A stretch of DNA of 64,000 bases, taken from the NCBI RefSeq assembly GCF_034479515.1, contig NZ_CP140152.1, forward strand, positions 6,200,001-6,264,000. Reading direction: 5' to 3'. This document shows positions 25,146 through 55,901 of this stretch, piece after piece; within the stretch, counting starts at the first letter, position 1, and each line of letters starts with the position of its first letter. Position numbers and translations under genes: made by a program. This DNA comes from Duganella zoogloeoides. GTDB lineage: Bacteria; Pseudomonadota; Gammaproteobacteria; Burkholderiales; Burkholderiaceae_D. Under the pieces are notes generated by a model. That model ran no database searches. It saw only the letters and a list, made by a program, of their open reading frames with translations, and was not told the DNA's origin.

Positions 25146-26754
25146 CGCCAGCCGCAAGGCCGCGCGCTGCAAGCGCTCAACGAAGTTGCTGGTCTTGCTG
25201 GCCAGCGCGAGCGCACTGTCCGGGGTGGCTACCGCACAGGTGCCCGCTGCGGGACCCGCAGGGGCGCCAACGGCAGCAGCAACTGCAACACCAGCGGCAA
25301 CGGCAGCAGCGCCGGCAACGGCAATGCCAGCGGCAGGAGCGATGGTGGCAGCAACGACGGCACCAGCGCCAACAATAGCAACGGCGCCTGCACTGGCGCC
25401 AACGATAGCAACGGCGCCTGCACCAGCGCCAACAGCATGCAACGCCAAGCGCCCGGCCATCAACTTCAATCGCTGGGCCGAGAACTGGGACGTGCTGGCC
25501 AGCTCCTGCCTGCCGCGCCAGCCGCTCGACGGCCTCAAGTACATCCCGTTTGGCAATGGCAGTTCTTACCTGTCGCTGGGCGCCGGCTTGCGCGAGCGTT
25601 ACGAGCATATCGATGCGCCATCGTATGGCGCCGGCGCCGCACCGGCCGACGGCTACGTGATCCAGCGCGCCAACGTCCATGCGGACCTGCGACTGGGGCC
25701 GTACGTACAAGTGTTCGGCCAGCTGGTCGACGCGCGCACGTTCGACAAGAAGACGATTGCCCCGCCCGACCGCGACAAGCTCGATGTCGAGCAGCTGTTC
25801 GTGACCGTGGCCGTGCCCACGGCGGACGGCGCGGTCAAAATGCGCGTGGGCCGGCAGGAGATGGCGTTCGACTTGCAGCGCTTTATCGCCGCGCGCGACG
25901 GCCCCAATGTGCGCCAGTCGTTCGACGGGGTGTGGGCCGACTGGGAACATGGCCCGTGGCGCGTGATCGGCTACGTGACGCAGCCGGTACAAAACCGCAG
26001 CGAAAAATCGTTCGACGATTATTCCAACGGCCACCTGACCCTGAACGGCCTGCGCCTGGAACGGCAGGGATTCGGGCCGGGCGACATCTCCGGCTACTAC
26101 TCGCGCTACCGGCGCGACGATGCGCGCTTCCTCGACGCCACCGGCAATGAACGCCGCGACGTCTATGATTTACGCTACAGCGGCATCACCGGCAACGTGG
26201 ACTGGGACGTGGAGGGCATGCTGCAACACGGCCAGGTCGGCGCCAAGCGTGCATCAAGCTGGGCGCTGGGCTCGATCGCCGGCTATACCTTTGCCAATGC
26301 GACCTGGTCGCCGCGCGTGGGCCTGCAATTCGACATGGCCTCGGGCGACAGGCACGCCGGAGACGGCAAGCTGGGCACCTTCAACCCGCTGTTCGCCAAC
26401 GGCTATTATTTCTCGCTGGCGGGCCTGACCGGCTACAGCAACCTGGTACACGTAAAACCCTCGATCAAGATCAAGCCGATCAAGTCCTTGAGCGTGACCA
26501 CGGCGCTGGGCCTGCAATGGCGCCAGACCACGGGCGACGCGGTGTACGTACAAAGCATGGCCGGCGTGCCGCGCACGGCGGGCCAGGGCTCACGCTGGAC
26601 CGGCGCCTACGCCCAGCTGCGCACCGACTGGGCGGTCACGCCGAATGTGACGGCGTCGCTGGAGGCGGTGCACTTCCAGGTGGGCGACAGCTTGCGTCGC
26701 GCTGGCGGGCGCGATGTGGATTACCTGGGGATGGAACTGAAGTTCGGGTGGTAA
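25129..26754 (+). CDS. Alginate-export (AlgE-like) outer-membrane porin family protein
   Basis: 541 residues. A signal peptide (to about residue 36) is followed by a low-complexity Ala/Pro/Thr linker (about 38-102), then a beta-barrel-like region rich in alternating aromatic and polar residues. The barrel starts SLGAGLRERYEHIDAP and contains QLVDARTFDKK and VKMRVGRQEMAFDLQRFIA-type strands; it ends in YLGMELKFGW with a terminal aromatic typical of outer-membrane proteins. This matches the alginate_exp family, whose members are porins for diverse polysaccharides or small solutes. No alginate genes are nearby. The linker is encoded by a GC-rich minisatellite. Confidence 0.8.
   Translation: MQPSVNASRKAARCKRSTKLLVLLASASALSGVATAQVPAAGPAGAPTAAATATPAATAAAPATAMPAAGAMVAATTAPAPTIATAPALAPTIATAPAPAPTACNAKRPAINFNRWAENWDVLASSCLPRQPLDGLKYIPFGNGSSYLSLGAGLRERYEHIDAPSYGAGAAPADGYVIQRANVHADLRLGPYVQVFGQLVDARTFDKKTIAPPDRDKLDVEQLFVTVAVPTADGAVKMRVGRQEMAFDLQRFIAARDGPNVRQSFDGVWADWEHGPWRVIGYVTQPVQNRSEKSFDDYSNGHLTLNGLRLERQGFGPGDISGYYSRYRRDDARFLDATGNERRDVYDLRYSGITGNVDWDVEGMLQHGQVGAKRASSWALGSIAGYTFANATWSPRVGLQFDMASGDRHAGDGKLGTFNPLFANGYYFSLAGLTGYSNLVHVKPSIKIKPIKSLSVTTALGLQWRQTTGDAVYVQSMAGVPRTAGQGSRWTGAYAQLRTDWAVTPNVTASLEAVHFQVGDSLRRAGGRDVDYLGMELKFGW
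25265..25436 (+). repeat. Minisatellite encoding the Ala/Pro/Thr linker
   Basis: Short degenerate GCAACGGCAGCA-like repeats run from about 25265. At about 25365-25436 a 30-base unit (CCAACxATAGCAACGGCGCC plus CTGCACxxGCG) occurs twice, with a partial third copy. All keep frame. Copy-number change would lengthen or shorten the periplasmic linker of the porin. Confidence 0.6.
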
Positions 26755-39993: not shown

Positions 39994-42900
39994 ATGGGCT
40001 ATTTCACCGGTTTAAGCACGCAAAACGTTGCCGCAATTTCCACCACGCAGATCGCTGCGCTGGGGACTTCCAATTTCACGGATCTGACGTCTGATCAGAT
40101 TGTGGCGCTGACCACCGACCAGGTGATTGCGCTGCGTTCGCAGCAAATAGCCGCCATCTCCACGGGCACCATTTCGCGCATGGCCACCGAGGACTTCGCC
40201 GCCCTCACCACCAGCGCCCTGGGCGGCCTGACCACTGCGCAAGTACGTGCGCTGTCGTCCGACCAGATCGTGGCACTGACCACCAGCCAGGCTGGCGCGC
40301 TGACCACCGCGCAAGTTGCCGCCTTCGGCACCGACGCCATCGTCGCACTGGAAACCGCTGATTTCGTCGCCCTCAAGACCGCGTCGATCGCGGCCCTGAC
40401 CACCGCCCAGGTCAAGGCCCTGACGACCAGCCAGATCGTCGCGCTGTCCACCGCCGCCGCCAACGCCCTGACCAGCCAGCAAGTTGCCGCCTTCACCACC
40501 GACGCCATCGTTGCGCTGGAAACGGCCGACCTGGCCGCCCTGAAAACCGCCTCGATCGCCGCGCTGACCAGCGCGCAAGTGGCCGCCCTGACCACCACCC
40601 AGGTGCAGGCGCTGTCCACTGCTGCGCTGTCGGCCATCTCCACGGCCAATATCGCCAACGGCCTGACCACTGACCAGATCGTCGCCCTGTCGTCGAGCCA
40701 GGTTGCGGGCCTGACCACCGCGCAAGTGGCCGCGCTGTCGACCGCCAGCATCGTTGCGCTGGAAACGGCCGACCTGGCCGGCCTGACCACCGCCGGTGTT
40801 GCCTCCCTGCGCACGGCGCAAGTGGCTGCCCTGACGACCGGCCAACTGGTCACCCTGTCCACCAACCAGATCGCCGCGCTGACCACCGCCGGCGCTGCCG
40901 CACTGACCACCGACCAGATCGTTGCCTTGACCACCACCCAGGCTGGCGCCCTGACCAGCCAGCAAGTGGCCGGCCTGTCCACCGCCGCGATTGCCGCCCT
41001 GGAAACCGCCGACTTCGCTGCGCTGAAAACCGCCAGCCTGGCTGCGCTGACCACCAACCAGGTGCGTGCGCTGACTACCGACCAGGTGGTTGCCTTGAGC
41101 ACCGCCGGCGCCAATGCGCTGACCACCCAGCAAGTTGCCGCTCTGACCACCGACGCCATTGTGGCGCTGGAAACTGCCGACCTGGTTGCGCTGAAAACTG
41201 CGGCAATCGCCGGCCTGACCTCGGCGCAAGTGGCCGCGATCACCACCGCCCAGGTGCAAGCACTGTCCACCGCTGCGCTGTCGGCCATCTCCACCGCCAA
41301 CATCGCCAACGGTCTGACCACCGACCAGATCGTTGCCCTGTCGTCGAGCCAGGTTGCCGGTCTGACCACCGCGCAAGTGGCCGCGCTGTCGACCGCCAGC
41401 ATCGTTGCGCTGGAAACGGCCGACCTGGCCGGCCTGTCCACCGCTGACATCGCCGCCCTGCGCACCGTGCAGGTGGCCGCCCTGACCACCGGTCAACTGG
41501 TCACCCTGTCCACCAACCAGATCGCCGCGCTGACCACCGCCGGCGCTGCCGCGCTGACCACCGACCAGATCGTTGCCCTGACCACCACCCAAGCCGGCGC
41601 ACTGACCAGCCAGCAAGTGTCCGGCCTGTCCACCGCCGCGATTGCCGCCTTGGAAACGGCCGACTTCGCCGCCCTGAAAACCGCCAGCCTGGCTGCGCTG
41701 ACCACCAACCAGGTGCGTGCGCTGACCACCGACCAGGTGGTTGCCTTGAACACCGCCGGCGCCGCTGCGCTGACCACGCAGCAAGTGGCCGCGTTCACCA
41801 CCGACGCCATCGTCGCGCTGGAAACGGCCGACCTGGCCGCCCTTAAAACCGCGTCGTTTGCCGCACTGACGTCGGCGCAAGTGGCCGCGATCACCACCGC
41901 CCAGGTACAAGCACTGTCCACCGCTGCGCTGTCGGCCATCTCCACCGCCAATATCGCCAATGGCCTGACCACCGACCAGATCGTTGCCCTGTCGTCGAGC
42001 CAGGTTGCCGGCCTGACCACCGCGCAAGTGGCGGCGTTGTCCACCAATAGCATCGTCGCGCTGGAAACGGCCGACCTGGCCGGCCTGTCCACCGCCGATA
42101 TCGCCGCCCTGAAAACTGCGCAGGTTGCCGCCCTGACCACCGACCAGCTGGTGGCCCTGTCGAGCACCCAGGTGGCTGCCTTTACCACCGCCGGCGCTGC
42201 TGCGCTGACCACTGACCAGATCGTTGCCCTGACCACGGCCCAAGCCGGTGCGCTGACCAGCCAGCAAGTCGCTGCGCTGTCCACCAACGCCATCGTGGCG
42301 CTGGAAACGGCCGACTTCGCCGCGCTGAAAACCGCTGCTGTCGCCGCATTGACCACCAACCAGATCAAGGCGCTGACCACCGACCAGGTCGTTGCACTGA
42401 CCACGGCCGGCGCTGGTGCGCTGACCACCCAGCAAGTTGCCGCCTTCACCACCGACGCCATCGTCGCACTGGAAACGGCCGACCTGCGTGGCCTGGATAC
42501 CGCCTCGTTTGCCGCGCTGACCTCGGCCCAGGTTGCCGCCCTGACCACCGTCCAGGTACAAAGCCTGAGCACGTCGGCCCTGGCTGCATTGACCACGGCG
42601 AACATCGCCAACGGCCTGACCACCGACCAGATCGTTGCACTGAGCTCGAGCCAGGTTGCCGGTCTGACCACCGCGCAAGTCGGCGCGTTGTCCACCAATA
42701 GCATCGTCGCGCTGGAAACGGCCGACCTGGCCGGTCTCTCCACCGCCGCCATCGCTGCCCTGAAAACCACGCAAGTTGCCGCGCTGACCACCGACCAGGT
42801 AGTTGCCCTGTCGAACACCCAGGTGGCAGCGTTCACCACCGCCGGTATCGCCGCGCTGACCACCGACCAGGTGGTTGCCTTGACCACCGGCCAGGCCAAT

Positions 42901-45900
42901 GCGTTGACCACCGCGCAAGTGGCAGCCCTGTCCACCAACGCCATCGTGGCGCTGGAAACGGCCGACTTTGCCGCGCTGAAAACCGCCGGTGTTGCCGCTC
43001 TGACCACCAACCAGATCCGCGCCCTGACCACCGACCAGGTCGTCGCACTGACCACCGCTGGCGCCGGCGCGCTGACCACCCAGCAAGTTGCCGCCTTCAC
43101 CACCGACGCCATCGTCGCCCTGGAAACGGCCGACCTGCGTGGCCTGGACACCGCTTCGTACGCTGCGCTGACCTCGGCGCAAGTCGCTGCCCTGACCACG
43201 GCCCAGGTGCAGAGCCTGAGCACGACGGGTCTGGCCGCCCTGACCACGGCCAATATCGCCAACGGCCTGACTACCGACCAGATCGTCGCCCTGACCTCGA
43301 GCCAGATCGCCGGTCTGACCACCGCGCAAGTGGGTGCCTTGTCCACGGCCAGCATCGTCGCGCTGGAAACGGCCGACCTGGCCGGCCTGACCACCGCCGG
43401 CGTCGCCGCCCTGAAAACGGCACAAGTCGCCGCCCTGACGACCGACCAGCTGGTGGCCCTGTCCACCAACCAAATCGTCGCGCTGACCACCGCTGGCGCT
43501 GCCGCTCTGACCACCGACCAGATCGTTGCTCTGACCACCAACCAGGCCGGCGCACTGACCAGCCAGCAAGTGGACGGCCTGTCCACCGCCGCGATTGCCG
43601 CCCTGGAAACGGCCGACTTCGCTGCGCTGAAAACCTCCAGCCTGGCCGCGTTGACCACCAACCAGGTACGCGCCCTGACCACCGACCAGATCGTGGCCTT
43701 GAGTACCATCGCCGCCAACGCGCTGACCACCGCGCAAGTGGCTGCCCTGACCACCGACGCCATCGTGGCGCTGGAAACGGCCGATTTCGCTGCGCTGAAA
43801 ACTGCCGCAATCGCCGGTCTGACCTCGGCGCAAGTGGCCGCGATCACCACCGCGCAGGTGCAGGCCCTGACCACCGCGTCGCTGGCCGCACTGTCCACGG
43901 CCAATATCGCCAACGGCCTGACCACCGACCAGGTTGTCGCGCTGAGCTCGAGCCAGGTTGCGGCCCTGACCACCGCGCAAGTGGGCGCGTTGTCCACCAA
44001 TAGCATCGTCGCGCTGGAAACGGCCGATCTGGCCGGCCTGACCACCGCCGGTGTCGCCGCCCTGAAAACGGCACAGGTCGCCGCCCTGACGACCGACCAG
44101 CTGGTGGCCCTGTCCACCAACCAGATCGTCGCGCTGACCACCGCCGGCGCTGCCGCGCTGACCACCGACCAGATCGTTGCCTTGACCACCACCCAGGCCG
44201 GCGCCCTGACCAGCCAGCAAGTGGCCGGCCTGTCCACCGCCGCGATTGCCGCCCTGGAAACGGCCGACTTCGCTGCGCTGAAAACCGCCAGCCTGGCTGC
44301 GCTGACCACCAACCAGGTGCGTGCGCTGACCACCGACCAGGTGGTTGCCTTGAACACCGCCGGCGCCGCGGCGCTGACCACGCAGCAAGTGGCCGCGTTC
44401 ACCACCGACGCCATCGTCGCGCTGGAAACGGTTGACCTGGCGGCACTGAAAACCGCGTCGTTCGCCGCGCTGACCTCGGCGCAGGTGGCCGCGATCACCA
44501 CCGCCCAGGTGCAAGCGCTGTCCACCGCTGCGCTGTCGGCCATCTCCACGGCCAATATCGCCAGCGGCCTGACCACCGACCAGATCGTCGCCCTGTCGTC
44601 GAGCCAGGTTGCCGGTCTGACCACCGCGCAAGTGGCGGCGTTGTCCACCAATAGCATCGTCGCGCTGGAAACGGCCGACCTGGCCGGCCTGTCCACCGCC
44701 GACATCGCCGCCCTGAAAACCGCGCAGGTTGCCGCCCTGACCACCGACCAGCTGGTGGCCCTGTCGAGCACCCAGGTGGCTGCCTTTACCACCGCCGGCG
44801 CTGCTGCGCTGACCACCGACCAGATCGTTGCCCTGACCACGGCCCAAGCCGGTGCGCTGACCAGCCAGCAAGTCGCTGCGCTGTCCACCAACGCCATCGT
44901 GGCGCTGGAAACGGCCGACTTCGCCGCTCTGAAAACCGCTGCTGTCGCCGCGCTGACCACCAACCAGATCCGCGCCCTGACCACCGACCAGGTGGTTGCG
45001 CTGACCACGGCTGGCGCTGGTGCGCTGACCACCCAGCAAGTCGCCGCCTTCACCACCGACGCCATCGTCGCGCTGGAAACGGCCGACCTGCGTGGCCTGG
45101 ACACCGCTTCGTACGCCGCGCTGACCTCGGCGCAAGTCGCTGCCCTGACCACGGCCCAGGTGCAGAGCCTGAGCACGACGGGCCTGGCCGCCCTGACCAC
45201 GGCAAATATCGCCAACGGCCTGACCACGGACCAGATCGTCGCTCTGACCTCGAACCAGATCGCCGGCCTGACCACGGCCCAGGTTGGCGCCTTGTCCACC
45301 AACAGCATCGTTGCGCTGGAAACGGCCGACCTTGCCGGCCTGACCACCGCCGGCGTCGCGGCGCTGAAAACGGCGCAAGTTGCCGCGCTGACGACCGACC
45401 AGGTGGTTGCCTTGTCGAACACCCAGCTGGCTGCCGTGACCACCACCGGTATCGCCGCGCTGACCACCGACCAGGTCGTCGCCTTGACCACCGGCCAGGC
45501 CAACGCGCTGACCACGGCGCAAGCGGCAGCCCTGTCCACCAACGCCATCGTGGCGCTGGAGACGGCTGATTTCGCCGCGCTGAAAACCGCCAGCCTGGCC
45601 GCGCTGACCACCAGCCAGATCCGCGCCCTGACCACCGACCAGATCGTGGCCCTGAGCACCACCGCCGCCAACGCGCTGACCACGCAGCAAGTCGCCGCCC
45701 TGACCACCGACGCCATCGTGGCGCTGGAAACGGCCGACCTTGCCGCGCTGAAAACCGCTGCCATTGCCGGCCTGACCTCGGCGCAAGTGGCCGCGATCAC
45801 CACCGCGCAAGTGCAGGCGCTGACCACCGCGTCGCTGTCGGCCCTGTCCACGGCCAACATTGCCAACGGCCTGACCACCGACCAGATCGTGGCGTTGAGC

Positions 45901-47676
45901 TCGAGCCAGGTCGCTGGCCTGACCACCGCGCAAGTGGGGGCGTTGTCGACCGCCAGCATCGTTGCGCTGGAAACGGCCGACCTGGCCGGCCTGACCACCG
46001 CTGGCGTTGCCGCGCTGAAATCGACGCAGATCGCCGCGTTGACCACCGACCAGGTGGCAGCATTGTCCAGCACCCAGCTGGCGGCCTTCACCACCGCCGG
46101 CATCCGTGCCCTGACCACCGACCAGGTGGTGGCGTTGACCACTGCCCAGGCTGGCGCACTTGGCACGCTGCAAGTGGCTGCACTGACCACCAATGCGGTT
46201 GCCGCGCTGGAAACGGCCGACCTGAACGCGCTGAAATCGACGTCGATTGCCGCGCTGACCACCACCCAGCTGCGTGCACTGACCACCGACCAGATCGGCA
46301 GCCTGACGACCGCGGCACTGGGCGCGCTGACCACGGCGCAAGTGGCCAACGGTCTGACGACCGACCAGATCGTTGCGCTGGGCACCAGCCAGGCCGCTGC
46401 GCTGAGCACCCTGCAGGTCTCGTCGCTGAGCACGACCAGTGTTGCTGCACTGGAAACGCAGGACCTGAACGCACTGAAAACGGAAGCGGTTGCCGCCCTG
46501 CGCACCAACCAGCTCGCTGCCATCACCACCGACCAGCTGTCGGCGCTGACCACGACCCAGATCGCCAGCCTGAGCACCACGGCCCTGGCCGCCGGCCTGA
46601 CCACTGCACAAGCAGTGGCGCTGTCGAGCGACCAGATCAACGCGCTGACCAGCACCCAGCTGCGCGCGCTGTCCACCAGCAGCATCGCTGCCCTGGAGAC
46701 TGCCGACATCGTGGCGCTGAAAACCGCGTCGCTGGCGGCGCTGACCACGCAGCAGTTCGTGAAGTTGACCACCGACCAGTTCGTGGCACTGTCCACCGAC
46801 CAGATCAAGGCGCTGACCATGGCCCAGGTCGATGCGCTGTACGCCACGACGACGCTGAAAGCGGCGATCACGGCCGACCAGCAAGCAGCGATGCCACTGT
46901 CGAGCCCTATCGTTCTCGATCTGAACGGCAACGGCATCAACACCCTCAACCTGTCGGCCGGCGTGCAGTTCGATCTGCTGGCCACCGGTAACAAATCCAA
47001 CGTCGGTTGGGTGGGTGGTGGCGATGGCCTGCTGGTCCTGGACCGCAACGGCGACGGCGTGATCAACAACGGTAGCGAACTGTTCGGCGAGGGCACCACC
47101 CTGGCCAACGGCCAGAAAGCGGCCAACGGCTACCAGGCGCTGGCGGAACTCGATGTCAACGGCGACGGCGTAATCGATGCCAAGGACACCCAGTTCAACA
47201 ACCTGCGCGTGTGGGTCGATGGCAATGCCGACGGCGTCAGCCAGGCCGATGAACTGAAGTCGCTGGCCGACCTCAACATCGCCAAGCTGAACCTCGACGT
47301 GCAGAAAACGTCCATCGTCGATAACGGCAACCTGATCGGCATGGTCTCGACCTTCGAGACCACCGACGGCGCCGTGCACCAGGCAGCGGACGTCTGGTTC
47401 CAGGACAGCAGCAAGACTGCCGGCAGCCTGACCTCGTCGGTGAGCAGCCTGTCGAACGCCTTGTCGAGCTTTGACGCGGCAGCCACCAGCACCGCCAACA
47501 CGGCCAAGCTGGAACTGCCATCGAGCGTGAACTCGCAAGTGGCCGCCATGGCCAGCGCCATCGGCAACTTCGAGCACAAGCTGACCGCCTCGACCCACCA
47601 GGCGGCCACCGAAGACTCGCTGCGCCTCAAAGCGCTGCAAGGCGGCCATGGCCAAGGCATCCTGGCAGCCAAGTAA
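39994..47676 (+). CDS. Giant octapeptide-repeat protein, predicted type I secreted surface protein
   Basis: 2560 residues. Residues about 3-2295 are an almost unbroken array of octapeptides of the form A-L-T-T-x-Q-V/I-x. Apart from a few Tyr and Phe the array is nearly free of aromatics, and I saw no Cys. Octapeptides are organised in 217-residue blocks (651 nt) ending in an IANGL-type marker that adds one residue to the phase. The tail (about 2300-2560) has PIVLDLNGNG and three EF-hand-like loops starting at about residues 2350 (DRNGDG), 2387 (DVNGDG) and 2409 (DGNADG), as in many type I secretion substrates, then a Ser/Thr/Ala C-terminus. There is no N-terminal signal peptide. An HlyB/HlyD pair follows, supporting one-step export. 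Adhesin or surface-layer role is inference; the fold of the array is unknown. Confidence 0.88.
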   Translation: MGYFTGLSTQNVAAISTTQIAALGTSNFTDLTSDQIVALTTDQVIALRSQQIAAISTGTISRMATEDFAALTTSALGGLTTAQVRALSSDQIVALTTSQAGALTTAQVAAFGTDAIVALETADFVALKTASIAALTTAQVKALTTSQIVALSTAAANALTSQQVAAFTTDAIVALETADLAALKTASIAALTSAQVAALTTTQVQALSTAALSAISTANIANGLTTDQIVALSSSQVAGLTTAQVAALSTASIVALETADLAGLTTAGVASLRTAQVAALTTGQLVTLSTNQIAALTTAGAAALTTDQIVALTTTQAGALTSQQVAGLSTAAIAALETADFAALKTASLAALTTNQVRALTTDQVVALSTAGANALTTQQVAALTTDAIVALETADLVALKTAAIAGLTSAQVAAITTAQVQALSTAALSAISTANIANGLTTDQIVALSSSQVAGLTTAQVAALSTASIVALETADLAGLSTADIAALRTVQVAALTTGQLVTLSTNQIAALTTAGAAALTTDQIVALTTTQAGALTSQQVSGLSTAAIAALETADFAALKTASLAALTTNQVRALTTDQVVALNTAGAAALTTQQVAAFTTDAIVALETADLAALKTASFAALTSAQVAAITTAQVQALSTAALSAISTANIANGLTTDQIVALSSSQVAGLTTAQVAALSTNSIVALETADLAGLSTADIAALKTAQVAALTTDQLVALSSTQVAAFTTAGAAALTTDQIVALTTAQAGALTSQQVAALSTNAIVALETADFAALKTAAVAALTTNQIKALTTDQVVALTTAGAGALTTQQVAAFTTDAIVALETADLRGLDTASFAALTSAQVAALTTVQVQSLSTSALAALTTANIANGLTTDQIVALSSSQVAGLTTAQVGALSTNSIVALETADLAGLSTAAIAALKTTQVAALTTDQVVALSNTQVAAFTTAGIAALTTDQVVALTTGQANALTTAQVAALSTNAIVALETADFAALKTAGVAALTTNQIRALTTDQVVALTTAGAGALTTQQVAAFTTDAIVALETADLRGLDTASYAALTSAQVAALTTAQVQSLSTTGLAALTTANIANGLTTDQIVALTSSQIAGLTTAQVGALSTASIVALETADLAGLTTAGVAALKTAQVAALTTDQLVALSTNQIVALTTAGAAALTTDQIVALTTNQAGALTSQQVDGLSTAAIAALETADFAALKTSSLAALTTNQVRALTTDQIVALSTIAANALTTAQVAALTTDAIVALETADFAALKTAAIAGLTSAQVAAITTAQVQALTTASLAALSTANIANGLTTDQVVALSSSQVAALTTAQVGALSTNSIVALETADLAGLTTAGVAALKTAQVAALTTDQLVALSTNQIVALTTAGAAALTTDQIVALTTTQAGALTSQQVAGLSTAAIAALETADFAALKTASLAALTTNQVRALTTDQVVALNTAGAAALTTQQVAAFTTDAIVALETVDLAALKTASFAALTSAQVAAITTAQVQALSTAALSAISTANIASGLTTDQIVALSSSQVAGLTTAQVAALSTNSIVALETADLAGLSTADIAALKTAQVAALTTDQLVALSSTQVAAFTTAGAAALTTDQIVALTTAQAGALTSQQVAALSTNAIVALETADFAALKTAAVAALTTNQIRALTTDQVVALTTAGAGALTTQQVAAFTTDAIVALETADLRGLDTASYAALTSAQVAALTTAQVQSLSTTGLAALTTANIANGLTTDQIVALTSNQIAGLTTAQVGALSTNSIVALETADLAGLTTAGVAALKTAQVAALTTDQVVALSNTQLAAVTTTGIAALTTDQVVALTTGQANALTTAQAAALSTNAIVALETADFAALKTASLAALTTSQIRALTTDQIVALSTTAANALTTQQVAALTTDAIVALETADLAALKTAAIAGLTSAQVAAITTAQVQALTTASLSALSTANIANGLTTDQIVALSSSQVAGLTTAQVGALSTASIVALETADLAGLTTAGVAALKSTQIAALTTDQVAALSSTQLAAFTTAGIRALTTDQVVALTTAQAGALGTLQVAALTTNAVAALETADLNALKSTSIAALTTTQLRALTTDQIGSLTTAALGALTTAQVANGLTTDQIVALGTSQAAALSTLQVSSLSTTSVAALETQDLNALKTEAVAALRTNQLAAITTDQLSALTTTQIASLSTTALAAGLTTAQAVALSSDQINALTSTQLRALSTSSIAALETADIVALKTASLAALTTQQFVKLTTDQFVALSTDQIKALTMAQVDALYATTTLKAAITADQQAAMPLSSPIVLDLNGNGINTLNLSAGVQFDLLATGNKSNVGWVGGGDGLLVLDRNGDGVINNGSELFGEGTTLANGQKAANGYQALAELDVNGDGVIDAKDTQFNNLRVWVDGNADGVSQADELKSLADLNIAKLNLDVQKTSIVDNGNLIGMVSTFETTDGAVHQAADVWFQDSSKTAGSLTSSVSSLSNALSSFDAAATSTANTAKLELPSSVNSQVAAMASAIGNFEHKLTASTHQAATEDSLRLKALQGGHGQGILAAK
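40000..46592 (+). repeat. Higher-order coding repeat: 24-nt units in 651-nt blocks
   Basis: The marker codon group for I-A-N-G-L begins at 40651, 41302, 41953, 42604, 43255, 43906, 44557, 45208 and 45859, exactly 651 nt apart each time. The first block runs back to 40000, where Y-F-T-G-L stands in the marker position. After the ninth marker two shortened blocks follow (483 and 243 nt, markers at 46342 and 46585). Each block length is a multiple of 24 plus 3 nt (27, 20 or 10 octapeptides plus one residue). Confidence 0.92.
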
Positions 47677-47700
47677 GCTGACGTAGTTGCACCATGAGAG

Positions 47701-47733
47701 CGGCAAGACCTGCGGGTCTTGCCGTTTTTTTTT
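47701..47733 (+). terminator. Strong rho-independent terminator after the repeat-protein gene
   Basis: CGGCAAGACC-TGCG-GGTCTTGCCG is a perfect 10-bp stem with a 4-base loop followed by nine T residues, 25 bases after the stop. It separates the substrate gene from the exporter genes, which therefore need their own promoter or depend on leak-through. Confidence 0.95.
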
Positions 47734-47875
47734 CGGAGCACGCAGCGATTTCATCTGTCGAACAGAAATGTAAAATGGGTTGTGCTTCCAAACAACAAAA
47801 TCCCCCGAAGCAACACCTTGGCGGGTAAAATTCCAAGGCTGGTATCACTCCGGTTCCCCACTCCCACCAGGCCCT

Positions 47876-50026
47876 ATGCAAGATAAATTTCCCCACACCG
47901 CGGTACAGTGCCTGACAGCGATCGCACAGCATCACGGCCTGCAAATCAACCCCGAACGCCTGATCGACGAGTACGCGCTGCGCGCGGAAGAGCCGGGCAA
48001 CGGCATGCTGCTGCGCATGGCGTCCGAGATCGGCCTGAAAGCCAAGGCCGACAAGCTGACCTGGTCGCGCCTGCTGGCGCAGGGCGGCGTGTTCCCGCTG
48101 ATGGCGCGCCTGATCAGCGGCAACATGGTCATCATCGTCGGCGTCAAGCCGGGCGAGGACGGCGCCCCCGACCAGGTGGCGGTACTGAACCCGGCGCTGG
48201 CCAACGCCACCGTGATCATGGTCGCGCGCGCCGAGTTCGAGCAGCGCTGGCAGGGCGAGGTGCTGTTCGTCAAGCGCGAGCACAAGTTTACCGACCCGCA
48301 CCAGCCGTTCGGCCTGCGCTGGTTCATTCCCGAAATCCTGCGCCAGAAGGCGGCGTTCCGCGACATTTTCATTGCCGCCATCGCCATGCAGATCCTGGCG
48401 CTGGCGTCGCCGATCTTCTTCCAGCTGGTGATCGACAAGGTGCTCACGCACCAGAGCGTGACGACCTTGCAGGTGCTGGCCGTGGGCATCACCATGGCGC
48501 TGGTGTTCGACGCGCTGTTCGGCTTCCTGCGCCAGACCCTGACGCTCGCCGCCAGTAATAAAATCGACATGCGCCTGACGCGCCGCGTGTTCGGCCACCT
48601 GCTGTCCCTGCCCATCGACTTTTTCGAGACCACCAGCGCCGGCGTCATCACGCGCCACATGCAGCAGCTCGAAAAGATCCGCAGCTTCCTTACCGGCCGG
48701 CTGTTCTTCACCGCGCTCGACCTGATCTCGCTGCTGGTGTTCATTCCGATTTTGTTCAGCTACTCGTTCAAGCTGACCCTGATCGTGCTGCTGTTCGCGG
48801 CGCTGATCGGCGGCGTGGTGCTGGCCATGGTGCCCACCTTCCAGCGCCGCCTCAACGCGCTGTACACGGCCGAGGGCCAGCGCCAGGGCATGCTGGTGGA
48901 AACCATCCACGGCATGCGCACGGTCAAGGCGCTGGCGATCGAGGCGTCACAGCGCCGCACCTGGGACCAGCGCTCGGCCGAGGCGATCACCATGCACTTC
49001 CGGGTGGGGCAGATTTCGATCGCCGGCAATGCCGTCACCGATTTCCTCGGCAAGCTGCTGCCGGTCACGCTGATCGTGGTGGGCGCGGCCGACGTGTTCG
49101 ACAGTACCCTGTCGGTCGGTGCGCTGATCGCGTTCCAGATGCTGTCGGGCCGCGTCACGCAGCCGCTCATTTCGCTCGTCGGCCTGGTCAACGAATACCA
49201 GGAAACCGCGCTGTCGGTGCGCATGCTGGGCGAGGTGATGAACCGCGCGCCGGAAGGCCGCGCCGGCGCCACCGGCCTGCGTCCGCAACTGGATGGCGAA
49301 ATCAGGTTCGACAACGTGATCTTCCGCTATCCCGGTGCGCAGAACCTGGCCCTCAACAAGGCCAGCTTTACCATCGAGCAGGGCACGGTGGTGGGTATCG
49401 TCGGCCGTTCCGGTTCCGGCAAGACCACCTTGACCAAGCTGATCCAGGGCCTGTACCCGCTACAGGAAGGCATCGTCCGCTTCGACGGCATCGACGCGCG
49501 CGAGATCGAGCTGTCGCACCTGCGGCGCCAGATCGGCGTGGTGTTGCAGGAGAATTTCCTGTTCCGCGGCACGGTGCGCGAGAACCTGTCGGTGACCAAG
49601 CCCGATGCCCCGTTCGAGGAACTGGTGGCGGCAGCCGTCGCGGCCGGCGCCGACGAATTCATCGAGCGGCTGCCCCAGGGCTACGACACCATCCTGGAAG
49701 AGAACGCCTCCAACCTGTCCGGCGGCCAGAAGCAGCGACTGTCGATCGCGCGCACGCTGGTGGCGCGCCCGCGCATCCTTATCCTGGACGAGGCCGCCTC
49801 CGCGCTGGACCCGGAATCGGAAGCGATCTTCATTAAAAATCTGTCGAAGATCGCGGTGGGCCGCACGGTGGTGATGATTTCGCACCGCCTGTCCACGCTG
49901 GTCAATGCCGACAAAATCATGGTCATGCAGCAAGGCTCCCTGGTGGATGCCGGCCGGCATGAAGAACTGCTTACCCGTAGCGACACTTACCAGCATTTAT
50001 GGAACCAGCAAACAAGCCACCTGTAA
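47876..50026 (+). CDS. Type I secretion ABC transporter (HlyB-type) with C39-like domain
   Basis: 716 residues from the ATG at 47876. The N-terminal 125 residues form a C39-like domain (HTAVQCLTAIAQHHGLQINPE). By alignment with HlyB, recalled from memory, the catalytic Cys position is Thr, so it should bind but not cleave substrate. Six membrane helices span about 140-420. The ATPase has Walker A GRSGSGKTT (about 510), signature LSGGQ (about 613), Walker B ILILDEA (about 635) and H-loop ISHRLS. It overlaps the HlyD gene by 28 bases. A longer reading from 47780 lacks a good ribosome-binding site. With the preceding giant protein it forms an exporter-substrate pair; the outer-membrane channel is not in this cluster. 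Confidence 0.92.
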   Translation: MQDKFPHTAVQCLTAIAQHHGLQINPERLIDEYALRAEEPGNGMLLRMASEIGLKAKADKLTWSRLLAQGGVFPLMARLISGNMVIIVGVKPGEDGAPDQVAVLNPALANATVIMVARAEFEQRWQGEVLFVKREHKFTDPHQPFGLRWFIPEILRQKAAFRDIFIAAIAMQILALASPIFFQLVIDKVLTHQSVTTLQVLAVGITMALVFDALFGFLRQTLTLAASNKIDMRLTRRVFGHLLSLPIDFFETTSAGVITRHMQQLEKIRSFLTGRLFFTALDLISLLVFIPILFSYSFKLTLIVLLFAALIGGVVLAMVPTFQRRLNALYTAEGQRQGMLVETIHGMRTVKALAIEASQRRTWDQRSAEAITMHFRVGQISIAGNAVTDFLGKLLPVTLIVVGAADVFDSTLSVGALIAFQMLSGRVTQPLISLVGLVNEYQETALSVRMLGEVMNRAPEGRAGATGLRPQLDGEIRFDNVIFRYPGAQNLALNKASFTIEQGTVVGIVGRSGSGKTTLTKLIQGLYPLQEGIVRFDGIDAREIELSHLRRQIGVVLQENFLFRGTVRENLSVTKPDAPFEELVAAAVAAGADEFIERLPQGYDTILEENASNLSGGQKQRLSIARTLVARPRILILDEAASALDPESEAIFIKNLSKIAVGRTVVMISHRLSTLVNADKIMVMQQGSLVDAGRHEELLTRSDTYQHLWNQQTSHL

Positions 50027-51366
50027 ATCCGGCCAAGGTCCGCCAGCAAAAGGATCAGACCGAGATCGACTTCCTGCCGGACGCCGACGCCATCGAGCGC
50101 GGCCCGCTGCCGCGCTTCGTGCAACTGACCCTGCACCTGCTGGTGCTCACGCTGGTCGGCTTCATCGTCTGGGCCAGCGTCTCGCCGATCGACAAGGTCG
50201 TCATCGCCCATGGCCGCCTGGTCAACCCGCTGCCGAATATCGTGCTGCAGCCGCTCGATACGTCGATTATCCAGAGCATCGACGTGCGGGTGGGACAAAT
50301 CGTCAAAAAGGGCCAGTTGCTGGCCACGCTCGACCCCACCTTCAGCGCGGCCGATGAAAGCCAGCTGCGCATCCGTCTCGACAGCCTGAACAACCAGGCC
50401 GCCGGCCTGCGTGCCGAACTGGGCGGCAAGGCTGGCAGCACCGAGGCGGGCAGCGACGACGCCCGCCTGCAGCAGCAGCTGTCGCTGGAACGGCGCGGCA
50501 ACTACGAGGCGCAAAAATCGAAGATGGATCAGAACATCGCACGCCTGCGCGCCGGCCTGGAAACCAACAAGCACGACCAGGTGGTGCTGGCCCAGCGCGT
50601 CAAATCCCTGCGCGAAGTGGAGGCGATGCAGGAGCAACTGGTCGCCGAGAACTTCGGCGCCAAGATGCATTTGCTCGAAGCGCGCGACCGCCGCCTGGAA
50701 GTCGAGCGCGACATGGATATGCAGCGCAACAAGGCGGTCGAGATGGCCAGCGAACTGGCGTCGGTACAGGCCGAGCGCGCCGCGTTCGAGCGCAGCTGGC
50801 GGCAAAAGGCGATGGAAGATCTGCTGTCCGCCACGCGCGACCGCGACGGCATCAACGAGCAGCTGTCGAAGGCCGACAAGCGCCTGAAAATGGTGCAGAT
50901 GGTCGCGCCAGCCGACGGCGTGGTGCTGGAAATCGCCAAGTTCTCGGTGGGGTCCGTGATCCGCGAGGCCGAACAGATGTTCACGCTGGTGCCGCTGGGC
51001 GCCGAGCTGGAAGCGGAAGTGCAGATCGACTCGGTCGATATCGGCTTCATCAAGACCGGCATGCCGGCCCACATCAAGGTCGATGCGTTCACGTTCATGA
51101 AGCACGGCATGTTGGAGGGCAAGGTGCGCACGGTGAGCCAGGATTCGTTCAAGCGCGACACCGCCGACAAGAACGGCGGCGGCCTCGACACCTATTACCT
51201 GAGCCGGATTCCGTACACGGGGGCATTGAAGAAGGTGGCGCCGGGCACGCAACTGCTGCCCGGTATGACGGTCTCGGCGGAAATCGTGGTGGGCCAGCGC
51301 ACCGTGATGTCGTACCTGCTGTACCCGCTCACGCGGGCGCTGGACGAGTCGATACGCGAACCGTAA
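49999..51366 (+). CDS. Type I secretion membrane-fusion protein (HlyD family)
   Basis: 455 residues. A cytoplasmic N-terminus (about 1-40) precedes one membrane helix (about 45-62, LTLHLLVLTLVGFIVWASV). Next come the barrel-lipoyl segment (VLQPLDTSIIQSIDVRVGQIVKKGQLLATLDP), a long coiled-coil region (about 110-300) and the C-terminal lipoyl/barrel part (VQMVAPADGVVLEIAKFSVGSVIREAEQ, then the closing TPLxGMTVSAEI-type segment). It links the ABC transporter to an outer-membrane channel. Its start lies inside the transporter gene, so the two are translationally coupled. Confidence 0.92.
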   Translation: MEPANKPPVNPAKVRQQKDQTEIDFLPDADAIERGPLPRFVQLTLHLLVLTLVGFIVWASVSPIDKVVIAHGRLVNPLPNIVLQPLDTSIIQSIDVRVGQIVKKGQLLATLDPTFSAADESQLRIRLDSLNNQAAGLRAELGGKAGSTEAGSDDARLQQQLSLERRGNYEAQKSKMDQNIARLRAGLETNKHDQVVLAQRVKSLREVEAMQEQLVAENFGAKMHLLEARDRRLEVERDMDMQRNKAVEMASELASVQAERAAFERSWRQKAMEDLLSATRDRDGINEQLSKADKRLKMVQMVAPADGVVLEIAKFSVGSVIREAEQMFTLVPLGAELEAEVQIDSVDIGFIKTGMPAHIKVDAFTFMKHGMLEGKVRTVSQDSFKRDTADKNGGGLDTYYLSRIPYTGALKKVAPGTQLLPGMTVSAEIVVGQRTVMSYLLYPLTRALDESIREP

Positions 51367-51641
51367 TCCGGCACCAATGTCGGTAACGAAAACCGCTGCT
51401 TGTCAGCGGCGGCGGTTCCTGTATCGATGCTGGATTACTCTGCTGCAGGCGCGTCCGGCGTTAGATATCGGATGATGCGGGCGCCTTCCAGCAAGACCGT
51501 GAATTGCCAGACCGTTGGCGCGCGCCGTGGGCCTGTGCTGCCTAACCGGAATTGAGCACGCGTTTGAACGCCCCTTCGAGGGCGGCTGGATGATGCGGCA
51601 TCGGTCGATATGAGATATAAAATTCTTTTCGAAATGACAGA

Positions 51642-52523
51642 TCAGACTTGCCGGAGAGTGGCCACGTAGTCTCGGTAGCGCTGGTGTGCCGGCGCCATTT
51701 GCACGAATACGTCGTGCAAACGGGCGCTGACGTCGGCCACCTGGGCCTCCAGCGCGAGTAACTCTTCGGTGTTGATGACGCCGGCCTCATGACTGACAAC
51801 GAGCAGATCGATGTAGTCCGAAAAACAGTTGCCGAAATACGGATTGGCATTGATATTGGAATTCGACTCGAGCCGGGGGTCGTGGCGGAAATAAGTGAGC
51901 TCTTCATCGATATAGAAGGCCTGGCCGTCGCGCGCCAGGTTGATGTAAGCCGCCACGTCCGCCAGACCGCGCGTGAAATCGTGGCGGCCGATGCGGAACA
52001 GGTCCTTGTAGCCGATCGCCCACAACTTATCGCGGCGGAACATGATGCTGGAAAATTCGCCAACAAAGTTGCGCATGCCCAAAGCCATCGAGCGCTGCAT
52101 GTCGCGCCCGTCGAGGTTGCCGTTGGCCTCGTAGGGGCGGCGGACATCGGTGCGCTGGTTGTCGGAATTGATGACCTGCGAAGCGGAAAAGATCAGCTGG
52201 TTTTGCGGCGACATTTCCATTGCCGACACCATGCGCTCGATACAAAACGGATGCAGCAGGTCGTCGTCGAACAGCGGCTTGATGTACTTGCCCTTGGCAG
52301 AGAACAGCACCGACAGCACATTGTCCTCGCGGATCACCGTGTTGCGCTGATAAATTACCCACGGAAAGCGCGCACAGATATCCTTGATATCCTCGGTGGG
52401 ACAGTTATCGCTGACCAGGATTTCCGTGTTCAGGTAAGTCTGTCCGATGGCTGAACGTAAACATGCCTCGAAATGGACTGCCTTGTACGACGGGATGACA
52501 ATGCTGACTTTGGGTAGAGACAT
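51642..52523 (-). CDS. Glycosyltransferase family 2 protein
   Basis: 293 residues. The GT-A fold starts at the N-terminus with VSIVIPSYKAVHFEACLRSAIGQTYLNTEILVSDNCP, and KPLFDDDLLHPFCIERM supplies the DxD-type metal/nucleotide-sugar site. There is no membrane helix, so it acts in the cytoplasm. The start at 52523 matches the usual GT2 N-terminus. It lies 165 bases beyond the much larger GT41 fusion gene on the same strand and converges on the secretion genes. A role in extending a sugar placed on the repeat protein is inference from location. Confidence 0.85.
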   Translation of the reverse strand: MSLPKVSIVIPSYKAVHFEACLRSAIGQTYLNTEILVSDNCPTEDIKDICARFPWVIYQRNTVIREDNVLSVLFSAKGKYIKPLFDDDLLHPFCIERMVSAMEMSPQNQLIFSASQVINSDNQRTDVRRPYEANGNLDGRDMQRSMALGMRNFVGEFSSIMFRRDKLWAIGYKDLFRIGRHDFTRGLADVAAYINLARDGQAFYIDEELTYFRHDPRLESNSNINANPYFGNCFSDYIDLLVVSHEAGVINTEELLALEAQVADVSARLHDVFVQMAPAHQRYRDYVATLRQV

Positions 52524-52531
52524 GATGGCTG

Positions 52532-52555
52532 TAGTAACCGGAGTAACCGGAGTAG
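52532..52555. repeat. Nine-base tandem repeat upstream of the GT2 gene
   Basis: AGTAACCGG-type units repeat two and a half times (GTAACCGGAGTAACCGGAGTAGCG), just before the GT2 start codon on the minus strand. It may be slippage-prone and could alter spacing to the ribosome-binding site. Confidence 0.55.
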
Positions 52556-52688
52556 CGATAACAGCTGCAAGCAGGCTTCTGGCCGGCAGCCGGCGTCTGG
52601 ATCGAAGGGTCTCGAAGTTGATTTTAAATAATGACAGATGAAATGCCGCGTTGCAAGTCTGGGACACCGCAGAAGGCGTGCCCTGCGG

Positions 52689-55600
52689 CTAGCTGGCCAC
52701 TGCCGTGATCACATATTGCCACGGCAACGCATCTTCCACCGCCTGTACCGGATCGATGCCCGACGCGCCGGCCATCAGGCGGATCGCCGCCAGGTACTTT
52801 TCACGGGCCGGTTCGTCGATGATGCGGGCGCTGCCGCCGCTGACCTGGAAACCCGCCTGCTGGAACAGGTCAAGCGCAGTGCCGCGCGTAAATACCCGCT
52901 TGCGCGACTTGTCCAGTCCATCGGCGCCGTAGCGCAGGTCGCCCGCGTTCAGCCGTGCCTGGGTGCTCCAGTGCTGGAAGTTGTTGATTGTGGCAACGAT
53001 CTTGCCGCCGGGGGCGATGCTGGTGCGGATTTTTTGCAGCAGGCTCCACGGGTCGTCCATGTGCTCGAGCGACTGGTCCAAAATCCAGCAGTCGGCGCCG
53101 CGCACGTGGTCCCAGAAGGCTGCACCGGTGGTGTCGATGTGGTCGTGGAACACGAAGTCGCAATGCTGGCGGGCGGCCTGGGCCGGGCCTGGTTCCGCTT
53201 CGATGCCGGTGATGTTGCAGACCGGGTTACGCTGGCGGTATGCGCGCGCGAACGTGCCGTCGCCGCAGCCCACTTCCACCAGCTTGCGCGCCGTTACCGG
53301 CACGAATTGCAGCAGGTCGACATTGACCGTGGTGGCGGCGCCGGGCAGGTCGTAGTGGTGGGCCAGGACCGGCTTTACCGTACCGGCTGCGGAGCGCTGC
53401 AGGAAGCGGGGCGTGTGGGCGCCGGCGCCGCCTGCGAGATCGGCACGCACCCAGTCGAGGTGCCTGATCAGGTCCGGATTGCCGCCGTGGTCGAGGGCCA
53501 GCATGGCGGCGATCAGCGGCGCGCCGTGCTTGATCGGCAGGGGCCACTGGCGCACCACGTCGAGGTTGACCAGCAGGCAGGCCGGATCCAGGTAGCGCAA
53601 GGCGCCGTCGGGGCGGGCATAACCGAGTTCGTTCACCGCGTGGATGGCGCCCACGCCATACATGCCGGGCGCCAGCTCGGCGTGCAATGCCGCCAGCAGG
53701 CCGTCATTGACCAGCTCCACGTCGGGAGCGAGCAGCAGCGCCTCGCCCGACAGGCCCAGGTGCTCGATGGCCCAGGCCAGGCCGGGGCCGTGGCCGATGT
53801 CGTAGCCAAAAGCGATGAACTCGACATTGTCGTACCGGGCGGCGATGGCGCGGATGCGCTCGGCGACGTCCGGGTTGGAACCGTCGATGATGGTCACGCG
53901 GTTGCTGTGGAAGCGGCGCACACTGGCCAGCAAGGTGTCGATCTGTTGCGGCGCATTGTGCGAGACGGTGATGATCGGAATCTGGTCCAGCCTTGCCGGC
54001 ACGGTTGCCGGCGAGGGCCGTACGGCGTGCGCCGGTGCGGGCAGGCGCGGTGCGGCTGGCTTGGCCACGCGCTGCAAGGCCGCCTCGAAGTTGCGCACGA
54101 AGCGCGGGCTGTCGAATAGCGCACAGTTGAGGCGGTTGGTGGCCAGCTGGCGTTTCATGGCGGCGATGCGGGCCGGGTCGTGGGCCAGGGCCACGGCCAG
54201 TTCCTCGTAGTCGGCCAGGTTGTCGGTGATCAGCTGCGGCAAGTCCACCGCGCGCAGCAGGCTGCCGGCCATGCGCGACGAGAAGGTGCGCCCGGTGCGG
54301 GTAATCAGCGGCAGGCCGGCCCACAGGGCGTCGCTGGCGGTGGTGCCGGCGTTGAACGGATACGTATCGAGGAACAGGTCGGCCAGCTGGTAGCGCGCCA
54401 GGTACTCGGCCGGCACCGCGCGGCTGTTGAAGATCAGGCGCTGGCGGGCGATGCCGGCTTGTTCCGCGTAGCGCCACAGGTTGTCGCGCACTTCGGGGTA
54501 ATCGGCTACCAGCCACAGCACGCTGTTCGGTACGCGGCGCAGGATGTTCATCCAGCTGGCGAACATCTCCTCGGTGAACTTGAAGTTGTTGTTGAACGAG
54601 CAGAACACAAAAGCGTCGTCGGGCAGGTTGACGCTGGCGCGCGTGGGCGTGGGCGCGATCGGGCGCTGGCGGTCGTTGATCTGGAATGCGTCGGGCATGG
54701 TCAGCGGCTTTTCGCTGAAATGCTCGGCCATCTCCGGCGTGATCAAAAATTCGTCCGCCACCACGTAGTCGATGCCGGGCAGGCCGGTGCTGCCGGGGAA
54801 GCCCAGGTAGGTCATCTGCACCGGCGCCGGCCGGTAGGCCAGGATGTTCGGCCGTGCGCCCAGCGTCAGGCCGTGCAGGTCTACCAGGATGTCGATTTCG
54901 TGGGCGCGGATGGTGCGTGCGGCCTGCTCGTCGGTCAGGTGGTCGATGCGGATGTAATGGTCCATGGCCTTGACCACGCGCGCCCGCAGCGGCGAGCCAT
55001 CCTCGCGGCTCCAGCTGAAGGCATAGACCTCGACCTTGCTGCGGTCGTGCAGCTCGTACAGCTCGGCAGTGAGGATCGAGACCGCGTGCGAGCAAAAGTC
55101 CGACGACAGGTAGCCGATGCGCAGGCGCGCGTGGTCGTAGCCGTGTTCGCCGGTCAGCGGGGCGACGGCGGCGTTGACCTTTTCCACCACGAAGCGGCGC
55201 GCGGCGGCCAGCTGCATGGCCGGATCGTCGGACGCGCTGAGCATGGCCAGCGCCGACGTGCCCTCCAGCATGGTGGCCTGCGAAATATGTTCGAGGCCGC
55301 TGTACACGGGCCAGGCGCACTGCTTCTGGCGCAGGTGCACCCAGTGCGTCATCACGTTGGCTTGCTGCGGATCGACGTGCAGGCTGCGCGCCAGCATTGC
55401 TTCCGCTTCCGGGTAGCGTCGGCGGATTTCCAGCAGGCGCCCCAGGTTGTTGAGGGTTTGCACGTACAGCGCAGGCGTGGTCTTGATGTCCGGCACCAGG
55501 CCGTCATCGAGGATCGATTGCCACATGGCCAGCGCCGCATCGGGACGGCCGGTGCGCTCGAGCAGGCTGCCCAGGTTCAGGCGCGCCTCGACAAAATTGG

Positions 55601-55901
55601 CATTGTTGGCGATGGCTTGGCGCAAGGCTGCCTCGGCGCCCACGTCGTCGCCGGTCTGGGACAGCACCACCGCCAGGTTGAAGCAGGCGGCATAGATCAG
55701 CCTTGTGTCGCTGTGGGCGATCCAGGTGCGGTAGAGGGCAATGGCCACCTGCGGCTGGCCGCTTTCGGTCAGCACCGCCGCTGCGGCGAACAGGTCGGCG
55801 ATCGCCAGCCGCCCTTGCGCCGCCAGCGCCATCACATTGTCCAGCGCACTGGCGGGGGTGTTCGTCACGGTAGGGGCGGCGGCAGGGTCAGGAGTGGTCA
55901 T
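52689..55901 (-). CDS. TPR - SPINDLY/OGT (GT41) - GT2-like - methyltransferase fusion
   Basis: 1070 residues with several domains. TPR helices lie at about 30-190. The GT41 region (about 255-620) shows LRIGYLSSDFCSHAVS, VDLHGLTLGARPNILAYRPAPVQ, YLGFPGSTGLPGIDYVVAD, FNNNFKFT and DLFLDTYPFNAGTTASDALW, the hallmarks of bacterial SPINDLY-type O-GlcNAc transferases. A Pro/Ala linker (about 620-640) leads to a GT2-like domain (about 640-830: IITVSHNAPQQIDTLLASV). A class I methyltransferase follows (about 870-1000: VEVGCGDGTFARAY and a later DQSLEHMDDPWSLL). Neither candidate start (ATG 55901, GTG 55943) has a good ribosome-binding site. GT41 enzymes modify proteins in the cytoplasm, including adhesins (HMW1C), so the nearby Thr-rich protein is a likely acceptor; this is inference. 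Confidence 0.88.
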   Translation of the reverse strand: MTTPDPAAAPTVTNTPASALDNVMALAAQGRLAIADLFAAAAVLTESGQPQVAIALYRTWIAHSDTRLIYAACFNLAVVLSQTGDDVGAEAALRQAIANNANFVEARLNLGSLLERTGRPDAALAMWQSILDDGLVPDIKTTPALYVQTLNNLGRLLEIRRRYPEAEAMLARSLHVDPQQANVMTHWVHLRQKQCAWPVYSGLEHISQATMLEGTSALAMLSASDDPAMQLAAARRFVVEKVNAAVAPLTGEHGYDHARLRIGYLSSDFCSHAVSILTAELYELHDRSKVEVYAFSWSREDGSPLRARVVKAMDHYIRIDHLTDEQAARTIRAHEIDILVDLHGLTLGARPNILAYRPAPVQMTYLGFPGSTGLPGIDYVVADEFLITPEMAEHFSEKPLTMPDAFQINDRQRPIAPTPTRASVNLPDDAFVFCSFNNNFKFTEEMFASWMNILRRVPNSVLWLVADYPEVRDNLWRYAEQAGIARQRLIFNSRAVPAEYLARYQLADLFLDTYPFNAGTTASDALWAGLPLITRTGRTFSSRMAGSLLRAVDLPQLITDNLADYEELAVALAHDPARIAAMKRQLATNRLNCALFDSPRFVRNFEAALQRVAKPAAPRLPAPAHAVRPSPATVPARLDQIPIITVSHNAPQQIDTLLASVRRFHSNRVTIIDGSNPDVAERIRAIAARYDNVEFIAFGYDIGHGPGLAWAIEHLGLSGEALLLAPDVELVNDGLLAALHAELAPGMYGVGAIHAVNELGYARPDGALRYLDPACLLVNLDVVRQWPLPIKHGAPLIAAMLALDHGGNPDLIRHLDWVRADLAGGAGAHTPRFLQRSAAGTVKPVLAHHYDLPGAATTVNVDLLQFVPVTARKLVEVGCGDGTFARAYRQRNPVCNITGIEAEPGPAQAARQHCDFVFHDHIDTTGAAFWDHVRGADCWILDQSLEHMDDPWSLLQKIRTSIAPGGKIVATINNFQHWSTQARLNAGDLRYGADGLDKSRKRVFTRGTALDLFQQAGFQVSGGSARIIDEPAREKYLAAIRLMAGASGIDPVQAVEDALPWQYVITAVAS

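Follow-up and report, generated by a model that had tools for sequence, protein, structure and literature searches.

The window analysed here (64,000 nt, positions 6200001-6264000 of a one-contig 6.32-Mb genome from Duganella, a soil bacterium) contains a set of genes whose interpretation as a glycosylated type I secretion locus is well supported by comparison with other genomes. Based on this comparison, an octapeptide (ALTTAQ) repeat protein, the presumed type I substrate, is probably O-glycosylated on Thr in the cytoplasm by the TPR-GT41 enzyme of a sugar island, followed by sugar extension and export through HlyB/HlyD. The five genes named in the initial annotation were all found in place as full open frames, and the features are as follows (window positions).

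39994..47676, + strand: ALTTAQ-repeat protein, 2560 aa, presumed type I substrate and glycosylation acceptor (PF20080, translation)
39994..46803, + strand: repeat core, octapeptides x-A-L-T-T-x-Q-I/V (octad count, AlphaFold model)
46903..47394, + strand: C-terminal module resembling the FrpC self-processing module, scissile Asp replaced (Ser-Pro) (phmmer, Foldseek)
47876..50026, + strand: HlyB-type ABC exporter, C39-like domain without catalytic Cys (TIGR01846, 7sgr)
49999..51366, + strand: HlyD-type adaptor (TIGR01843)
51642..52523, - strand: GT2 glycosyltransferase, 293 aa (PF00535; start as in near relative)
52689..55901, - strand: TPR-GT41-GT2like-methyltransferase fusion, presumed protein O-glycosyltransferase (Pfam, alignments, predicted fold)
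54063..55136, - strand: GT41 catalytic region of the fusion, residues 270-627 (His286 and Lys455 invariant)
53394..53981, - strand: middle GT2-like domain of the fusion, residues 655-850 (PF00535 in near orthologue)
52692..53330, - strand: C-terminal SAM methyltransferase domain of the GT41 fusion, residues 872-1084

The open frame of the exporter begins upstream at TTG 47780, and the ORFs of the GT2 enzyme and the GT41 fusion extend to 52667 and 55943, respectively. Since the GT2 and GT41 genes are convergent to the secretion genes, a single operon was ruled out for the window, although same-strand runs do occur in relatives. The Rfam search at gathering cut-offs returned two tRNAs only.

The repeats of the ALTTAQ protein are regular. 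Eighty-three stretches of PF20080 ("ALTTAQ repeat") were assigned by Pfam, and all 69 matches listed in the genome-wide PF20080 search fall in this gene; the octad count gave 275 octads, with a spacing of exactly 8 in 257 of 274 cases. Thr or Ser occupies position 5 in 273 and position 4 in 209 of the 275 octads. Both the abundance of Thr and the shortage of N-x-S/T sequons noted earlier proved to be real: the 2270-aa core contains 421 Thr residues and one sequon, compared with a mean of 14.3 sequons in 500 shuffles (range 6-24). The core contains no Cys. In the AlphaFold2 model of residues 1941-2560, which was run with ten sequences, each octad forms a helix of 5-6 residues and a turn of 2-3 residues, with pLDDT mostly >90 within the repeats of this segment. 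In the octads checked, the helix begins at position 5 according to the predicted secondary structure. Thr is not required for starting a helix, so the near-invariant Thr at position 5 calls for another reason. The repeats also match the deposited protein HeliScrew4 (9zem, E 1.3e-14), in which most octads have Pro at position 5.

FrpC processes itself at an Asp-Pro site. Residues 2304-2467 of the ALTTAQ protein match this self-processing module (6sjw; E 1.1e-34 by phmmer, 2.3e-11 by Foldseek), and the scissile site reads Ser-Pro in the window and Thr-Pro in nine aligned relatives. Self-processing by the module is therefore not expected.

The ALTTAQ protein is the putative substrate of a type I system, as an HlyB-type ABC exporter and an HlyD adaptor are encoded with it. 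The exporter scored 636 bits against TIGR01846, under the cut-off of 725.55, and matches HlyB (7sgr) at E 6.6e-143; the adaptor scored 312.5 bits against TIGR01843 (cut-off 208.65). The C39-like domain of the exporter does lack the catalytic Cys, as first read: Thr8 aligns with HlyB residue 9, which we take to be the catalytic Cys position, by an extrapolation of three residues from the start of the alignment.

The description of the enzyme at 52689..55901 as a GT41 (SPINDLY/OGT) fusion, a relative of human OGT, was confirmed, and it was found to be incomplete, given that the protein has a further GT2-like domain and a methyltransferase. By Pfam matches, a TPR array precedes the GT41 catalytic region, which scored 284.9 bits against PF13844 (cut-off 25). 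His286 and Lys455, which after work on OGT we assume to be the catalytic residues, are invariant across 32 aligned sequences and both align with XcOGT. The middle domain reached 14.5 bits against PF00535 in the window (below the cut-off of 23.3) and 27.3 bits in a near orthologue.

The survey of co-occurrence that had been proposed for this locus was carried out on 294 genomes of the family, presumably the Burkholderiaceae of GTDB. ALTTAQ repeats (E<=1e-6) were found in 48 genomes, and a relative of the fusion (E<=1e-20) in 171. At E<=1e-60, a relative was present in 46 of the 48 ALTTAQ genomes and in 33 of the 246 without ALTTAQ; at E<=1e-125, the counts were 39 of 48 and 2 of 246. Fisher values for these counts disregard kinship between genomes, and each E-value is for the top match with the whole fusion as query, a match that in G215 falls in the methyltransferase part. 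The ALTTAQ and GT41 genes lie on one contig within 20 kb of each other in 39 of the 48 genomes, from 9 genera, and within 500 bp in 25. This linkage persists while gene order and neighbours change, and the adjacency of HlyB/HlyD is less constant than that of ALTTAQ and GT41. The lack of co-occurrence named beforehand as refuting the proposal was not observed. In the other ALTTAQ genomes, the two genes are on different draft contigs (G120, G019, G065, G087 and G211) or distant from each other (517 kb in G001, 38 kb in G027), or no GT41 was detected at E<=1e-5 (G255 and G284, 2 of 48).

Around the fusion itself (+-10 kb), an ALTTAQ gene was found in 37 of the 45 named loci fetched, the exceptions being L065, L066, L096, L097, L098, L101, L102 and L109; for L103-L108, six of the 37, the match is confined to the middle and methyltransferase domains of the fusion, and with the count restricted to loci with GT41 it becomes 31 of 39. 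No ALTTAQ gene was seen in 12 control loci (L139-L150) around GT41 matches of ALTTAQ-free genomes, among which the GT41 gene itself was not recovered by the gene finder in two (L141 and L144). These controls and the 33 ALTTAQ-free genomes with a relative indicate that GT41 enzymes also have other uses. An HlyB-like gene was present in control loci L142 and L148, and in L142 the GT41 is paired with another HlyB/HlyD set.

The pairing was also observed beyond the family in two wider draws, for which GT41 was counted in the ALTTAQ-bearing genomes. In the class draw (321 genomes), ALTTAQ was found in two genomes besides our own, both with GT41: in one (L112), GT41 and ALTTAQ are 3.9 kb apart and flank an HlyB gene, and in the other the two are on different contigs. 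In the phylum draw (398 genomes), ALTTAQ was found in 24 others; GT41 was present in 18 of these and not found in 6, and same-contig linkage within ~11 kb was observed in at least nine (G967, G650, G647, G677, G640, G681, G706, G737 and G946). A GT41 tree was built from 68 rows, hand-picked out of 113, by a short search with long branches flagged; its "none" labels depend on the length of flank fetched. Most ALTTAQ-linked GT41s form one clade of 48 (support 97). Because the linked groups L122/L123 (support 100) and L121/L136/L138 (support 99) fall outside this clade, the tree suggests that the pairing arose or was exchanged at least twice, and probably three times; the separation of these two groups from each other has a weaker support of 84.

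The linked genes often form part of a larger island. The direct same-strand order ALTTAQ, GT41, GT2, FdtA was found in 21 of the 45 named loci, with FdtA usually followed by a DegT aminotransferase and an acetyltransferase; some islands add glucose-1-phosphate cytidylyltransferase and CDP-glucose dehydratase, and at the opposite end of the islands of L075, L084, L085 and L090 stands another ALTTAQ gene, with HlyB and HlyD, oriented towards the island. FdtA together with a DegT aminotransferase constitutes the route to dTDP-3-amino-3,6-dideoxyhexoses. Both the isomerase and the aminotransferase are encoded in the genome of the window, as a pair at about 969-970.6 kb (~1 Mb from the window locus) that is 98.5% and 94.9% identical to that of the island of Duganella sp. 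Leaf126 (G040, L046/L066). An acetyltransferase, present in many relatives' islands, was not seen beside this pair. The window resembles G040, where an ALTTAQ gene lies past HlyD and none on the distal side of GT41; compared with that island, the genes between HlyD and GT2 are missing. By its gene content, the window locus appears to be a reduced version of a dedicated amino-deoxysugar island.

The GT2 of the window locus is 88.7% identical to that of the L066 island (dN/dS 0.09). Among named entries of the genome collection, Duganella phyllosphaerae has the closest relative of the GT41 protein (92% identity), with a dN/dS of 0.067 for the TPR and GT41 part and 0.133 for the whole fusion, and these ratios indicate that the fusion is under purifying selection. 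A decayed function of the reduced island was rejected given this low dN/dS of the TPR and GT41 part, the full length of the fusion, and the FdtA-DegT pair kept elsewhere.

An acceptor role of the octad Thr predicts less of it in genomes that lack GT41. At positions 5 and 6 combined, Thr/Ser per octad was 0.45, 0.57 and 0.49 in the GT41-free genomes G255, G284 and G987, and its median was 1.08 (range 0.47-1.83) among 52 GT41-bearing genomes (Mann-Whitney 0.0026, kinship ignored). Position 4 was not lower in Thr/Ser in four GT41-free proteins (0.56-0.78). Pro at position 5 accounted for 9-30% in GT41-free proteins and for <7% in the others except G156, G167, G184 (11%), G189 and one G946 protein. 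Proteins with <10 octads or <15% octads were excluded, among them the G793 gene and two of the four fetched ALTTAQ-tail genes of G255, and the table leaves out the GT41-free genomes G660, G787, G796 and G872. As the GT41-free sample is three genomes, two of one genus, the depletion is suggestive evidence for an acceptor role. Position-5 Thr as a sufficient mark was weakened by G184, with its 11% Pro, and by four other genomes: G156 has its GT41 2 kb away, yet a value of 0.47; G167 (0.72) and G189 (0.82) take intermediate values although only 1 bp separates ALTTAQ and GT41 in them; and in G946, the GT41-adjacent protein (1.12, versus 0.75 for the non-adjacent one) has its Thr/Ser chiefly at position 6.

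Three other roles of the GT41 enzyme were weighed against O-glycosylation of the ALTTAQ protein. Modification of Asn in the secreted protein by an N-glycosyltransferase of the HMW1C type has a precedent, HMW1C being the GT41 known to glycosylate an adhesin ahead of its secretion, and NGT did appear as a distant match. However, the predicted GT41 fold is nearest to XcOGT, OGT and SPINDLY and more distant from HMW1C/NGT (the structural comparison of the fusion spanning mainly residues 43-632), so that the closest kinship is not with HMW1C/NGT; nor is the repeat core, with its single sequon, an N-x-S/T-rich substrate of their kind. This role is thus extremely improbable, and the initial preference for O- over N-glycosylation is consistent with both the fold and the depletion of sequons. 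An OGT-like regulator of cytosolic proteins with no tie to secretion, of the kind that eukaryotic OGT and SPINDLY represent among nucleocytoplasmic proteins, is very unlikely, since the enzyme gene is so often linked to that of a single repeat protein and to genes for amino sugars, and since the enzyme is fused to further glycosyl- and methyltransferase domains.

The glycan of the island may instead serve another surface target (flagellin, lipopolysaccharide or exopolysaccharide), with ALTTAQ merely a neighbour in a hot spot of surface genes. FdtA/DegT and CDP-sugar genes are also used for O-antigens, the genes of the window are convergent, and in L119/L120 a flagellin-like gene (by motif only) is found ~1 kb past ALTTAQ, at a distance of 6.5 kb from GT41. 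Against this stand the <=20 kb linkage in 9 genera despite changing order and neighbours, the lower repeat Thr/Ser in the three measured GT41-free genomes, and the action on proteins of GT41s of known function. Moreover, a second GT41 of the same genome, at 3.39 Mb, is 3.2 kb from a flagellin gene (PF00669/PF00700) with flagellar-export-like genes beyond it; flagellin therefore has its own candidate enzyme and is an unlikely target of the window GT41. Taken with these points, a role for the island at another surface target appears unlikely.

For glycosylation of the ALTTAQ protein before type I export, the sequences show which genes are present, their linkage and their conservation, and the folds are predicted; we infer the modification itself, the target residue, the order of the steps, the export signal and the surface role. 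The TPR-GT41 enzyme would bind the octapeptide protein in the cytoplasm once it is made and glycosylate Thr/Ser of many octads, chiefly at position 5. Extension or capping of this sugar would then fall to the GT2 enzyme and to the fusion's own GT2-like and methyltransferase domains; the nucleotide sugar would be, at least in part, of the FdtA/FdtB type, a 3-amino-3,6-dideoxyhexose. The C-terminal part of the glycoprotein would direct it through HlyB/HlyD and an outer-membrane channel, and the ALTTAQ tail would fold outside the cell on Ca binding, giving a sugar-coated, Ca-stabilised extracellular fibre. A bolder version, which we put forward tentatively and at somewhat less than even chances, is that nearly every octad is O-glycosylated at its helix-start Thr (~270 glycans per molecule, added in the cytoplasm), with the TPRs reading the octad register and the densely glycosylated chain threaded through the type I channel. 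If so, this would be a mucin-like or SRR-like proteobacterial surface fibre made by an unseen route, with repeat and enzyme co-evolving.

The coated protein may function in adhesion, in biofilms, or as a shield against phages or grazers. We know of no natural substrate for many bacterial OGT-like enzymes, and glycosylation of the repeats would provide one. How a chain bearing sugars gets through the HlyB-HlyD-TolC channel would then need an explanation. The octapeptide register would be a simple acceptor code open to testing, and the enzyme-repeat pairs of several genera a ready tool set for glyco-engineering.

Cytoplasmic glycosylation before export occurs in two-partner adhesins, flagellin and Gram-positive repeat adhesins, and a type I substrate that has its own GT41 and sugar island would extend this list. 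Exported repeat proteins with a dedicated cytoplasmic glycosylation machinery are known, and the coupling to type I secretion would be what is new here. The literature search, of incomplete coverage (few subscription papers, no preprints), found no description of an ALTTAQ-GT41 pairing and nothing on ALTTAQ, HeliScrew, or type I secretion combined with an O-GlcNAc transferase. HMW1A/HMW1C is similar in that a soluble GT41 gene lies beside that of a large secreted adhesin-like protein and its product acts before secretion; it uses two-partner secretion and an Asn-linked hexose, whereas the Duganella locus has type I secretion, an OGT/SPY-type GT41, Thr-rich repeats and amino-deoxysugar genes. 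The serine-rich repeat glycoproteins (GtfA/GtfB and accessory Sec) likewise have dedicated cytoplasmic O-glycosylation of long Ser/Thr repeats and their own exporter, but they are Gram-positive and rely on another glycosyltransferase family and on Sec rather than type I export.

FlmG of Caulobacter crescentus is described as a modular cytoplasmic flagellin O-glycosyltransferase with an N-terminal substrate-binding domain, whose substrate is exported afterwards (PMC7591256). It differs from the window enzyme in its substrate, flagellin, and its sugar, pseudaminic acid, and the main text of that paper mentions neither GT41 nor type I secretion (PMC7591256); as far as that description goes, the second GT41 in the flagellin cluster at 3.39 Mb resembles FlmG (PMC7591256). 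XcOGT XCC0866 (568 residues) and the Thermobaculum terrenum OGT (529 residues) are without the fused GT2-like and methyltransferase domains. FrpC of Neisseria meningitidis has the same C-terminal Ca-binding module (6sjw/6sjx), but the body of FrpC is RTX, whereas the window protein consists of octapeptide repeats and, with its relatives, has a Ser-Pro or Thr-Pro site.

Further open frames and repeats were found in the window:
25265-25434: 30-bp tandem repeats, within the open frame at 25129-26754
40012-47754, antisense to the gene of the octapeptide-repeat protein ALTTAQ: open frame of 2580 aa

The antisense open frame probably arises as a side effect of the GC-rich repeat.

The second GT41 glycosyltransferase of this genome was found together with a DegT aminotransferase gene, with a flagellin gene 3.2 kb away (stretch L013:7453-14812), and it is likely to act in flagellin glycosylation. 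GT41 matches occurred by the dozen in some genomes of other classes (50 in G647 and 43 in G702), and a near-tandem run of six GT41 genes was observed in a Caulobacteraceae MAG (L109:4401-17633).

In the ALTTAQ loci of Roseateles, Pelomonas and Paucibacter (L103-L108), the ALTTAQ genes are divergent from a GT2-like+methyltransferase fusion gene, and GT41 was absent from the fetched stretch; the initiating enzyme at these loci is possibly of another kind. In two genomes of ~3 Mb each (loci L119 and L120), the ALTTAQ gene is flanked by a divergent GT41 on one side and, on the other, by a flagellin-like gene, called from motif only.

Another HlyB/HlyD pair, adjoined by two GT41 genes, was observed at a control locus (L142:8097-16068) whose genome yielded no ALTTAQ match, and the partner of GT41 there is perhaps another type I substrate.
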